A DNA stretch of 55,367 nt from positions 1 through 55,367 of the forward strand of contig CAMCQE010000009.1 in NCBI GenBank assembly GCA_945876945.1. Direction: 5' to 3'. Source of the DNA: Klebsiella pneumoniae (lineage in GTDB: Bacteria; Pseudomonadota; Gammaproteobacteria; Ga0077536). A program made the translations under genes and the position numbers. The notes under the pieces were generated by a model. The model did no database searches and had not been told where the DNA came from. It was given only the letters and a program-made list of their open reading frames with translations. Positions 37,200 to 46,446 of the stretch are shown here, piece by piece. Every line of letters starts with the position of its first letter. The stretch's first letter is position 1.

Positions 37200-37649
37200 T
37201 CAGACCCGAATGAACTCCCCGACCTCGGGCTGAGCCCTGAGCTGCGCGAGCGCTGTGGCATCCGGTAGCTGAGGACGGTCACGCTGTGCGTTGACCATGC
37301 AGAGAAATCCGAGCGGTGTATCAGCGTCGGCACGAAACTGATGCCAGCTCAGCGCCGGCACATGCACCAAGTCGTTGAGCGCGACCGACATTACCTGCTC
37401 CCCCACCAACGCCCGACCCGCTCCGCGCACGATCATCACCGCGTGGACGTGTTCGTGGCGTTCCAGCGTGCTGTGCCCACCGGGCGCGACCTCGAAGTAG
37501 CGCAGCTGGCAACCCAGATCGGCGTCTTCAAATAACACCTGACGGGTGACATCCCGGAACGGCGCCGTGCCGTCCTGCTTATAGGCCAGCACCGGCACTT
37601 CCTCCCAGGTGAAATCACCGTGATGCCGTCGATGGGGTTTGTTGCTCAT
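37200..37649 (-). CDS. Cupin protein coupled to a RuBisCO-like protein
   Basis: 149-aa single cupin. Motif 1 reads GGHSTLERHEHVHAVMIVRG and motif 2 has PALSWHQFRA, giving the His/Glu metal set. Its ATG overlaps the stop codon of the RuBisCO-like gene (TGATG at 37647-37651). In Rhodospirillum rubrum a RuBisCO-like isomerase and a cupin methylsulfurylase act in sequence on 5-methylthioribose metabolites. The arrangement makes a similar sulfur-salvage role attractive here, but this is inference from context. A GTG at 37652 is a less likely start. Confidence 0.82.
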   Translation of the reverse strand: MSNKPHRRHHGDFTWEEVPVLAYKQDGTAPFRDVTRQVLFEDADLGCQLRYFEVAPGGHSTLERHEHVHAVMIVRGAGRALVGEQVMSVALNDLVHVPALSWHQFRADADTPLGFLCMVNAQRDRPQLPDATALAQLRAQPEVGEFIRV

Positions 37650-38761
37650 CACACTCCGCCTCCCGGCTGCGCCGTGGCAGCCACTGCATTCACAAAATCA
37701 GCACTGCGCTCGAAGAGTTCGGCCCCGGCCGAGAGCAGCGCGCCACCAATCAGCAGAATCACGTCTTCGCCATAGACCGACAGCATTTCCGGTACCCGCG
37801 CGACGCTCATACCACCGGCGGGCACCGGCGCGATGGCTCGCAGTCCATGCCAGGGCAAGCGCGCCGCGTCGGCCAGTGCAAGGCAAGTCTCCGGGCTATA
37901 GCTGAAACGTCCGCCGTAATTGGGAAAGACCGTCGCATCGGCGCCAAACAAGCGAAACAGGCGACCGAGCAATAACGGAGGGGCAATGCGCGCCGCGCCC
38001 GCCATCGCCGGGTGGGCGAGCAGGGGCACGCCAAGATTCTCCGTCGCCATCTCCACCAGACTGCCCACGCCCAGCAGCATCGGACATAGCAGCACCATGC
38101 CAACGCCTTCCTCGCGCACGATTCTTAGCTGCTCGGCAACCTGGCGGGGTCCGCCCGAGATTGAAGGGGCATAGACGCTGCGTCCGCCGGTGACGGCGTT
38201 CGCTTCACGCAGGGCGCGCTGACAGGCCTGCACACGAGCTGCGAACGGGGCGTAGTGCTGATTGGCGATGCCATGGTCGTCTTTGATGATGTCGAGGCCG
38301 GCGCGGGCAAAGGTCCCGCAGAGACTGGCGAGGGCCTCTGCGCCTAGCCCCTGCGGCTTGAGGGCGGTCATCGTGAGCGCACGACCGTGGGCCCCTACGC
38401 GATCCCGGATACCGTCGAGGCCAAATCTCGGCCCCGGAAAAGCGGCGACAAATTCGTCGGGGAAAGACACATCGACCAGCGTGACGTCGTCCTGCAGGGA
38501 GCAGTTGCCGAACAGCATGTTCATTAACTGCCCGGCTTCCATGCCGGTCGTCACGGTCGCAATGCCGAGCATCACGGCAAAGCGATGGGTATCGAGCTGC
38601 TGGATGCCTTCAATGGTGGCGATGACCTCGTTGCGCACGTACGCGTTGGTCACCGCCGCGGGCGGCATCTCGATACTTTGTTCAGCGGCCAGCGCCTGTG
38701 CACGTCCTTCGATGGACGCGCTATCGGCAGTGAGGTGATAAAGGGCGTGAATTCGACTCAT
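37649..38761 (-). CDS. RuBisCO-like protein (form IV)
   Basis: 370-aa RuBisCO large-chain fold. Lys135 (ALKPQGLG) corresponds to the loop-2 lysine. GLDIIKDDHG (156-164) aligns with the carbamylation motif KDDE, but Glu204 is His163. The loop-6 Lys334 region reads PVPAGGMSV, with no lysine. CO2 fixation is therefore excluded and an enolase or isomerase-type reaction on a sugar phosphate is expected. Length is typical of RuBisCO-like proteins. The start is the family-like MSRIHALYHL at 38761; more upstream frame exists but is not homologous. No strong ribosome-binding site. Confidence 0.9.
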   Translation of the reverse strand: MSRIHALYHLTADSASIEGRAQALAAEQSIEMPPAAVTNAYVRNEVIATIEGIQQLDTHRFAVMLGIATVTTGMEAGQLMNMLFGNCSLQDDVTLVDVSFPDEFVAAFPGPRFGLDGIRDRVGAHGRALTMTALKPQGLGAEALASLCGTFARAGLDIIKDDHGIANQHYAPFAARVQACQRALREANAVTGGRSVYAPSISGGPRQVAEQLRIVREEGVGMVLLCPMLLGVGSLVEMATENLGVPLLAHPAMAGAARIAPPLLLGRLFRLFGADATVFPNYGGRFSYSPETCLALADAARLPWHGLRAIAPVPAGGMSVARVPEMLSVYGEDVILLIGGALLSAGAELFERSADFVNAVAATAQPGGGV

Positions 38762-40639: not shown

Positions 40640-41923
40640 ATGAAGTTTCACTGGTTCAATCTCATGCCCTGGCCTTACTTGCCGGACGACTTCACCGAAA
40701 AACATCGCAGCGTGTGGGTGGATGTCGACTCCCGCCTGTTCGATCCGGTGAAGTCGAATCGCGTCTATAACGATTATCTTGACCTGCTCGAATTCGCGGC
40801 CGACCAAGGCTATGACGGCGTTGGCATCAACGAACATCACCAGAACGCCTACGGCCTGATGCCGTCACCGCAGTTGATGGCGGCGACGCTTGCGCGCCGT
40901 ACCCGCGACGTCTCCATCCTGCTGCTCGGACAATCGCTGGCGCTGTATGACCCGCCGACCCGCGTCGCCGAAGAAATGGCCATGATCGACTGCATTTCCG
41001 GCGGCCGCCTGATTTCCGGCTTCCCGGTCGGTAGCTCCATGGATGACAACTACGCCTGCGGCGTGAACCCCGCGACCTTGCGCGAAAAATATCTGGAAGC
41101 GCACGACCTCGTGCGCCGCGCGTGGTCCGATCCGGATGTCTTCGCCTGGAACGGCAAGCACTACAAGCTGCGCTATGTGAACCTGTGGCCACGGCCCATT
41201 CAGGCGCCGCCGCCGATTTGGATCCCCGGCGGTGGCTCGGTTGAAACCTGGGATTTCTGCGCGGAAAACCACTACAACTACAGCTATCTCTCGTTTAGCG
41301 GTTACATCCGAGGCGCGCAGTTGATGGACGGTTTCTGGCGGCGGATGGAAGAACTCGGCGCCGAATTTAACCCCTATCAAGCGGCCTTCGCGCAACAAAT
41401 CTGCGTGGCGGAGACCGATGCCGAAGCCCAGCGCCTGTATGAAAAACACGCGCGGTATTTCTTCTCACGTTGCCTGCATGTGCATCCGGGGTTCGCCGAT
41501 GCGCCAGGCTACCGCACCGAAGCCACCATCAAGGCCGGGCTGCAAAGCCAGATGGCCGGACAGTCCTCCGCCATGAATCAAGCCGCACAGCTGAGCTGGC
41601 AGGACATGATCGACAAGGGCTTCATCATTGCCGGCAGTCCTGATTCCGTCGCCGAACAAATGGAGCGCGTGGCGCGCACCCTGAAAGTGGGCCACGTCGT
41701 GTGTCTGCTGCATTTCGGCGATATGCCAACCTCGCTCTGCAAGTACTCCACCGAACTCTTCGCCAACCGCGTGATCCCGCGCATTCGTCCGATCTGGAAT
41801 GAGTACGAGGACCACTGGTCACCCCGTCCCATGCCGAAGGCCGAGCGCGCGGTGCCGCGCGATTGCCCGGGCACCCCGGACGAAACGTCCGCTACGGTGG
41901 CACCTTTGGCGCGGGTGGTCTGA
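40640..41923 (+). CDS. LLM-class flavin-dependent oxidoreductase
   Basis: 427-aa luciferase-like monooxygenase. Signatures: AADQGYDGVGINEHHQNAYG, RVAEEMAMIDCISGGRLISG and QAPPPIWIPGGGSVET. It is larger than the other LLM proteins in the window because of insertions after the barrel core. The ATG has a strong AAGGAGC site. Its stop codon shares one base with the start of an alpha/beta hydrolase gene (TGATG at 41921-41925), so the two form a coupled pair, likely oxidation then hydrolysis. Confidence 0.9.
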   Translation: MKFHWFNLMPWPYLPDDFTEKHRSVWVDVDSRLFDPVKSNRVYNDYLDLLEFAADQGYDGVGINEHHQNAYGLMPSPQLMAATLARRTRDVSILLLGQSLALYDPPTRVAEEMAMIDCISGGRLISGFPVGSSMDDNYACGVNPATLREKYLEAHDLVRRAWSDPDVFAWNGKHYKLRYVNLWPRPIQAPPPIWIPGGGSVETWDFCAENHYNYSYLSFSGYIRGAQLMDGFWRRMEELGAEFNPYQAAFAQQICVAETDAEAQRLYEKHARYFFSRCLHVHPGFADAPGYRTEATIKAGLQSQMAGQSSAMNQAAQLSWQDMIDKGFIIAGSPDSVAEQMERVARTLKVGHVVCLLHFGDMPTSLCKYSTELFANRVIPRIRPIWNEYEDHWSPRPMPKAERAVPRDCPGTPDETSATVAPLARVV

Positions 41924-45336: not shown

Positions 45337-46446
45337 GTGCGAAGACCGTTTAACGCCATGTTCAACCAGAACGCTTTCAAGCTTGGCCTGTTCTCTCCGA
45401 ACTGCAGCGGCGGCATGGCGGTCACCACCGTGCCGGAACGCTGGGACGCCAGCTGGGAGAACAATCTTGCACTCGCCAAACTGGCAGATGACACCGGCAT
45501 TGAGTTTCTCCTGCCGATCGCCCGCTGGACCGGCTACGGCGGCGATACCGATTTTCAGGGCGATTCGCTGGAAACCATTACCTGGGCGGCCGGGCTACTC
45601 GCGCACACACGAAGGCTTTCCGTCTTCGCGACCGCCCATGCGTCATTTCTCCATCCGCTGATGGCCGCCAAGCAGTTCGCCACGATTGACCACCTCTCAG
45701 GCGGCCGCTTCGGCCTGAATATCGTCTGTGGCTGGAATCAGCCCGAATATCAGATGTTCGGCCTTGAACTGCCGAGCGACCACGGCACACGCTACCGGTA
45801 CGGCCAGGAGTGGTGGGACATCATTCGCCAAACCTGGCAGACGGAGCTCCCCTTCGATTGGGACGGCGAGTTCTTTCAACTCAAGAACGCGCGCTGTCGC
45901 CCGCAGCCCGTGGCGCGTAGCTTGCCGCCGCTAATGAACGCCGGTTCTTCACGCGAGGGGCGCGAGTTCGCGGCTAGAAACTGCGACTTCCTGTTCACCG
46001 TGATGATTAATCCGGAAACCGGCCGCGAAGATGTGCGGCATATCCGGGAGGTCGCCGCTCAACAATACCAACGCGCACTGGAGGTCTTTACCACGACCTA
46101 TGTGGTCTGCCGTCCAAGCCGACGCGAAGCGGAGGAGTACCACCACTACTACGCGGTGGAGTGTGCTGACACTGCGGGAGTGGAACGCTTGATGGAGTTG
46201 CAGGGCATGTACGCGCAATCCTTCCCTCAGGAGATGATCGACGCCTTGCGCGTGCAGTTTGCGGGTGGCCACGGCGTTTATCCGCTCATCGGCGACCCCG
46301 ATTTTATTGCTGAAGAAATCGCGCGCATTCACGCCGCAGGCTTTGCCGGCGCGACGCTGGCGTTTGTGAACTACCTGACGGAGTTGCCCTACTTCGCGGA
46401 GGAAGTATTGCCGCGACTGGTTTCGCGTGGCTTGCGAATCGCGTAG
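45337..46446 (+). CDS. LLM flavin monooxygenase, SfnG/SsuD-like
   Basis: 369 aa. Close in pattern to FMNH2-dependent dimethylsulfone/alkanesulfonate monooxygenases: FKLGLFSPNCSGGMAVTTVPERW, ADDTGIEFLLPIARWTGYGG, HLSGGRFGLNIVCGWNQPEYQMFG. Such enzymes release sulfite or sulfinate from organosulfur compounds; the exact substrate cannot be read. The GTG at 45337 is preferred because GGAGAAG lies 6-12 nt before it; an ATG at 45358 is the alternative. Confidence 0.87.
   Translation: MRRPFNAMFNQNAFKLGLFSPNCSGGMAVTTVPERWDASWENNLALAKLADDTGIEFLLPIARWTGYGGDTDFQGDSLETITWAAGLLAHTRRLSVFATAHASFLHPLMAAKQFATIDHLSGGRFGLNIVCGWNQPEYQMFGLELPSDHGTRYRYGQEWWDIIRQTWQTELPFDWDGEFFQLKNARCRPQPVARSLPPLMNAGSSREGREFAARNCDFLFTVMINPETGREDVRHIREVAAQQYQRALEVFTTTYVVCRPSRREAEEYHHYYAVECADTAGVERLMELQGMYAQSFPQEMIDALRVQFAGGHGVYPLIGDPDFIAEEIARIHAAGFAGATLAFVNYLTELPYFAEEVLPRLVSRGLRIA

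Follow-up and report, generated by a model that had tools for sequence, protein, structure and literature searches.

Introduction

In Rhodopseudomonas palustris, the RuBisCO-like protein (RLP) RLP1, which is the DeepYkr RLP of that organism, converts 5-methylthioribulose-1-phosphate to 1-methylthioxylulose-5-phosphate and 1-methylthioribulose-5-phosphate in a ratio of 3:1, and a cupin mutant accumulates 1-methylthioxylulose-5-phosphate; proof of what RLP1 and the cupin do has come from gene deletions, 14C-labeled metabolites and enzyme assays (PMC5893883). In Rhodospirillum rubrum, Rru_A1998 and Rru_A2000 are used likewise, both aerobically and anaerobically, and neighboring RLP and cupin genes have been noted in Meiothermus, Nitrococcus and Halorhodospira (PMC4958253). 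The RLPs of R. palustris and R. rubrum are 53% identical (PMC5893883).

The window analyzed here, a stretch of 55,367 nucleotides from Klebsiella pneumoniae assembly GCA_945876945.1 (contig CAMCQE010000009.1), carries an RLP gene next to a cupin gene. A preliminary description had linked the two to an RLP isomerase and a cupin methylsulfurylase of R. rubrum, and this link is strongly supported by the position of the RLP in a phylogenetic tree, the homology of the cupin and the pathway genes found in the genome. The pair is assigned, with a probability of roughly 93%, to the MTA-isoprenoid shunt, a route of methionine salvage that starts from 5-methylthioadenosine (MTA), of which it would constitute a two-gene operon.

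Results

Both genes lie on the minus strand. The RLP gene (37649-38761), a predicted 5-methylthioribulose-1-phosphate 1,3-isomerase of the DeepYkr/RLP1 class, is an open reading frame of 370 amino acids that runs from an ATG at 38761 to a TGA at 37651-37649, and the cupin gene (37200-37649), a predicted 1-methylthioxylulose-5-phosphate methylsulfurylase of the Rru_A2000 family, is one of 149 amino acids that runs from an ATG at 37649-37647 to a stop at 37200. The TGATG overlap that had been described between them is confirmed by direct reading of the minus strand, the shared bases being 37651-37647, and the overlapping stop and start suggest that the two genes are translationally coupled. A GGGAGG motif inside the 3' end of the RLP gene (37659-37664, minus strand), spaced 9 nt from the cupin ATG, may act as a Shine-Dalgarno sequence. 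The Pfam models RuBisCO_large (77 bits; cut-off 30) and Cupin_2 (40 bits; cut-off 27) match the respective products, each of which is the only copy of its kind in the whole genome. The pair stands alone, with a convergent histidine kinase/response regulator gene on one side and a divergent gene upstream of the RLP on the other. A few kilobases away are two luciferase-like flavin monooxygenases (45337-46446 and 40640-41923, plus strand), one of which is nearest to the model for SfnG (dimethylsulfone monooxygenase), below its cut-off; a link of these enzymes to sulfur is possible.

The top match of the RLP in the PDB was 3QFW (E 7e-117, 54% identity), followed by MtnW structures (E 2.5e-43). The organism of 3QFW is not named in the PDB table, and we take the structure to be the Rhodopseudomonas RLP1 from its position in the tree, where it falls among Rhodopseudomonas sequences. 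When 68 sequences, named references included, were placed in a maximum-likelihood tree, the window RLP and 3QFW shared a clade of 21 rows (support 99/96), every member of which has an adjacent cupin, and this clade was nested in a DeepYkr-like clade of 50 rows (100/100). YkrW/MtnW (100/99) and Photo (100/100) were separate clades, NonPhoto and OiaX formed another, and MtnW was the nearest other RuBisCO-like branch. The comparison with the named form IV clades that the preliminary description had proposed as a check has been carried out in this tree, and by it the window RLP belongs to the DeepYkr class, grouping with R. palustris RLP1, a proven 5-methylthioribulose-1-phosphate 1,3-isomerase, which resolves the branch.

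The catalytic residues were numbered by mapping onto form III RuBisCO. The window RLP retains K175, K201, D203 and H294 and carries the substitutions K177 to Q, E204 to H, R295 to P, H327 to V and loop-6 K334 to R, and the RLP1-type positions K135, K160, D162, H163 and H250 are present together with the arginine at loop 6. The reported KDDH pattern (residues 160-163) and the missing loop-6 lysine are thereby borne out, and the exclusion of carboxylation that had been drawn from them is consistent with the residues found at K177, E204, R295, H327 and K334, on which a RuBisCO carboxylase identity was rejected. Histidine at the E204 position, which completes KDDH, occurs in 27/27 cupin-linked RLPs, in 16/16 RLPs of a transketolase-linked clade described below and in one of five RLP-cupin fusions, and it is absent from all MtnW, Photo, NonPhoto, OiaX and form III rows of the alignment. 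As the alignment reads, KDDH is the signature of the whole isomerase class and not of a new subfamily. The earlier suggestion of a distinct subfamily finds no support, as the window RLP and 3QFW agree at 14 of 14 tabulated catalytic positions.

It might be argued that the RLP is MtnW, the 2,3-diketo-5-methylthiopentyl-1-phosphate enolase of the universal oxygen-dependent methionine salvage, as MtnW models were the top NCBIfam models for this protein. However, the scores (181.9 bits against a cut-off of 409, and 140.7 against 513.6) are far too low, as were those of all NCBIfam MtnW, RuBisCO and OiaX models, the MtnW clade is separate, and the position that is histidine in the window RLP is glutamate in 7/7 MtnW rows. 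Further, family searches of the genome found no ARD/MtnD, and no class II aldolase in it reaches the MtnB cut-off, whereas all five of the mtnW-type RLP genomes tested carry both ARD/MtnD and MtnB, which shows that the searches work. MtnW is thus an extremely improbable identity, rejected on the tree, the histidine in place of glutamate and the lack of MtnB and MtnD.

Alternatively, the RLP could be an acid-sugar phosphate decarboxylase resembling OiaX or act on some other sugar phosphate, in which case the cupin would be an unrelated sugar enzyme. The OiaX model does match weakly (69.6 bits; cut-off 700), and a Vibrio operon joins transketolase and RLP genes to an FGGY kinase, so that other sugars may be handled by RLPs in the wider group. 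However, the window RLP groups with a proven isomerase and apart from OiaX and NonPhoto, it is devoid of the loop-6 lysine and R295, both kept by OiaX, the cupin belongs to the Rru_A2000 family, and no gene for a sugar kinase, a transporter or a dehydrogenase lies next to the pair in the window. A sugar-phosphate function is accordingly very unlikely, and the decarboxylase reading, which the preliminary description had entertained, was rejected on model score, tree and residues.

The cupin had its top PDB match in 3JZV, labelled Rru_A2000 (E 2e-53), followed by 3KGZ and 3IBM. It is homologous to Rru_A2000/RPA2170 over its full length, with the metal-ligand positions kept, and among 86 cupins, Rru_A2000 included, E63, H65, H67, H69, H103 and Q104 do not vary at the 97% level. 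The protein is on this basis a predicted 1-methylthioxylulose-5-phosphate methylsulfurylase of the Rru_A2000 family. A distinct DeepYkr subfamily could be imagined for this lineage, in which the isomerase is the same and the cupin has an altered product, either releasing a thiol other than methanethiol or serving a route that does not end in 1-deoxyxylulose-5-phosphate, though the homology, residues and conservation of the cupin give no pointer to it. Given that all 86 relatives keep the metal and active-site positions unchanged, and that Dxr and O-acetylhomoserine sulfhydrylase are present in the genome, we consider such an altered product hardly credible and keep to methanethiol and 1-deoxyxylulose-5-phosphate as the predicted products.

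Family searches of the genome for the remaining pathway genes detected mtnA (432 bits, contig 33), Dxr (497 bits) and O-acetylhomoserine sulfhydrylase (657 bits), and a phosphorylase on contig 58 (L127:4109-4870) that scored 350.6 bits with the methylthioinosine (MTI) phosphorylase model (cut-off 223) and 269.6 bits, under the cut-off of 274.85, with the MTAP model. Adjoining mtnA on contig 33 is a PRK09045-type hydrolase (L126:2573-3886; 699 bits, cut-off 540). The mtnA, phosphorylase and sulfhydrylase genes sit on other contigs than the RLP-cupin pair. Because the phosphorylase is of the MTI type and the PRK09045-type hydrolase lies beside mtnA, entry of MTA is probably deaminase-first; in Pseudomonas aeruginosa, a hydrolase of this type is an MTA deaminase.

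Taken together, these genes allow a route to be proposed. MTA would probably be deaminated to methylthioinosine, phosphorolysis of which would yield 5-methylthioribose-1-phosphate, to be converted by MtnA to 5-methylthioribulose-1-phosphate. The window RLP would then form 1-methylthioxylulose-5-phosphate, plus some 1-methylthioribulose-5-phosphate, and the cupin would split 1-methylthioxylulose-5-phosphate into methanethiol and 1-deoxyxylulose-5-phosphate. Methanethiol could be returned to methionine by O-acetylhomoserine sulfhydrylase, while 1-deoxyxylulose-5-phosphate could pass through Dxr to isoprenoids. By analogy, the window pair is thus expected to catalyze the same reactions as its R. 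rubrum and R. palustris homologs.

A cupin match was present in 76 of 80 named loci, among which R. rubrum was not included, and with eight further loci added the cupin gene was downstream of the RLP and on the same strand in 84 of 88, which argues that the partnership is not due to chance. In 54 of these 84, a possible cupin start lies at most 8 bases from the RLP stop. The linkage is so tight that the genes fuse: five genomes encode RLP and cupin as a single polypeptide of about 520-600 amino acids (L014:1381-3078, L016:976-2559, L017:1015-2586, L018:1261-3060 and L019:1501-3072), with KDDQ in four of the five and KDDH in one. A search of the open-access literature found no description of an RLP-cupin fusion. 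In a further genome (L134:2953-5328), a cupin of the Rru_A2000 type is located apart from the RLP, and a match to O-acetylhomoserine sulfhydrylase lies about 630 bases from it in the same orientation, separated from it by a single short gene; this neighborhood is the same pathway again. Elsewhere, an MtnW-type RLP and a class II aldolase (MtnB-like) domain make up one fusion protein, with an ARD gene adjacent (L023:1324-3093).

The DeepYkr-like RLPs that have no cupin form one clade of 16 (support 100/99). The gene for the C-terminal half of a split transketolase (TKC) precedes the RLP in 14 of the 16, with the N-terminal half (TKN) upstream in many, and TKC genes preceding a DeepYkr-like RLP come from several Pseudomonadota families (L007, L012, L128, L130, L135-L137, L139, L142-L145, L147, L148 and L151). 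In a genome of another family of the phylum (L154:7932-13356, minus strand), the order is mtnK-mtnA-TKN-TKC-RLP, with gene ends touching or overlapping and scores of 493.7 bits for mtnK (TIGR01767) and 440.9 bits for mtnA, and the same five-gene operon, with no cupin adjoining, was found on rhizobial plasmids, those of Shinella, Pararhizobium and Mariluticola (L185:1620-7044, L189:3633-9064 and L190:3637-9057). Its genes there are annotated as mtnK, mtnA, a transketolase or DXS-like N-terminal half, a transketolase C-terminal half and a RuBisCO-like protein, and all three plasmids have a gene for a sugar ABC transporter ATPase that is transcribed divergently from mtnK. A close TKN homolog occurs in 24 plasmid records. 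On a Vibrio nigripulchritudo plasmid (L188:5962-10581), an FGGY kinase comes after TKN-TKC-RLP; genes for sugar transport are present there, and mtnK and mtnA are missing. In Paracoccus the transketolase pair is present without an RLP. Because of these two cases, other sugars may also be substrates of the transketolase-RLP module. Three gammaproteobacterial genomes of this sister clade all have mtnA and a phosphorylase, and family searches found no cupin, ARD or MtnB in any of them. The mere presence of mtnA was dropped as evidence for a transketolase branch, as it was found in 24/24 genomes tested of one order, with or without an RLP of the transketolase clade; what matters is where mtnA lies in the operon.

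Among solved structures, the sister-clade transketolase is closest to human and split transketolases, and no description of a transketolase in methylthioribose salvage was found in a search of the open-access literature. It is possible that the RLP of this clade makes 1-methylthioxylulose-5-phosphate, an analog of the transketolase donor xylulose-5-phosphate, which could itself act as donor and be cleaved to glyceraldehyde-3-phosphate and a methylthioacetaldehyde-ThDP unit, from which methanethiol may be expelled in the fashion of a phosphoketolase. The mtnK-mtnA-TKN-TKC-RLP operon looks like a route of methylthioribose salvage that has yet to be described, with a ThDP enzyme in the place of the cupin. 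While RLP and transketolase genes are linked in operons, this chemistry is inferred, and the wider proposal, that the RLP class is a modular isomerase combined with two or more unrelated partners that release sulfur, a cupin and a split ThDP transketolase, the latter constituting an undescribed branch of methionine salvage, is one to which we give even odds. That the partners of the RLP class can differ, as this clade demonstrates, is also a point that weighs against the shunt assignment of the window pair, as is the placement of mtnA, the phosphorylase and the sulfhydrylase on other contigs.

Discussion

The window itself is ordinary, and the surprise lies in what the same RLP class joins elsewhere. 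The pair would add one more bacterial genome to those that send the sulfur of MTA to methanethiol without oxygen, with carbon reaching the isoprenoid pathway at 1-deoxyxylulose-5-phosphate. The transketolase operon beside mtnK and mtnA may represent a new route of methylthioribose salvage, one that could be tested in culturable rhizobia.

Among known systems, R. palustris shares with the window genome an adjacent RLP-cupin pair (RPA2169/RPA2170 in that organism), the presence of mtnA and the same catalytic residues, at identities of 54% for the RLP (to 3QFW) and about 60% for the cupin. However, mtnP and mtnA are side by side in R. palustris (RPA4821/4820, PMC5893883), whereas the window genome appears to have an MTI phosphorylase and, next to mtnA, an MTA-deaminase-type hydrolase. 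In the case of R. rubrum, Rru_A2000 (3JZV) is the closest match of the window cupin in the structural database and the pathway context is the same, but Rru_A1998 and Rru_A2000 are not consecutive by locus tags while the window genes overlap, and the window RLP is tied to Rru_A1998 only via R. palustris RLP1 and the cupin. MtnW (YkrW) has K175, K201, D203 and H294 in common with the window RLP, but it has glutamate after KDD where the window RLP has histidine, and it is found together with MtnB and MtnD, both of which the window genome lacks. OiaX, the 3-oxo-isoapionate-4-phosphate decarboxylase, is likewise a RuBisCO-like protein, yet it belongs to a different clade and keeps Arg295 and the loop-6 lysine, and its model scores the window RLP 10-fold under the cut-off.
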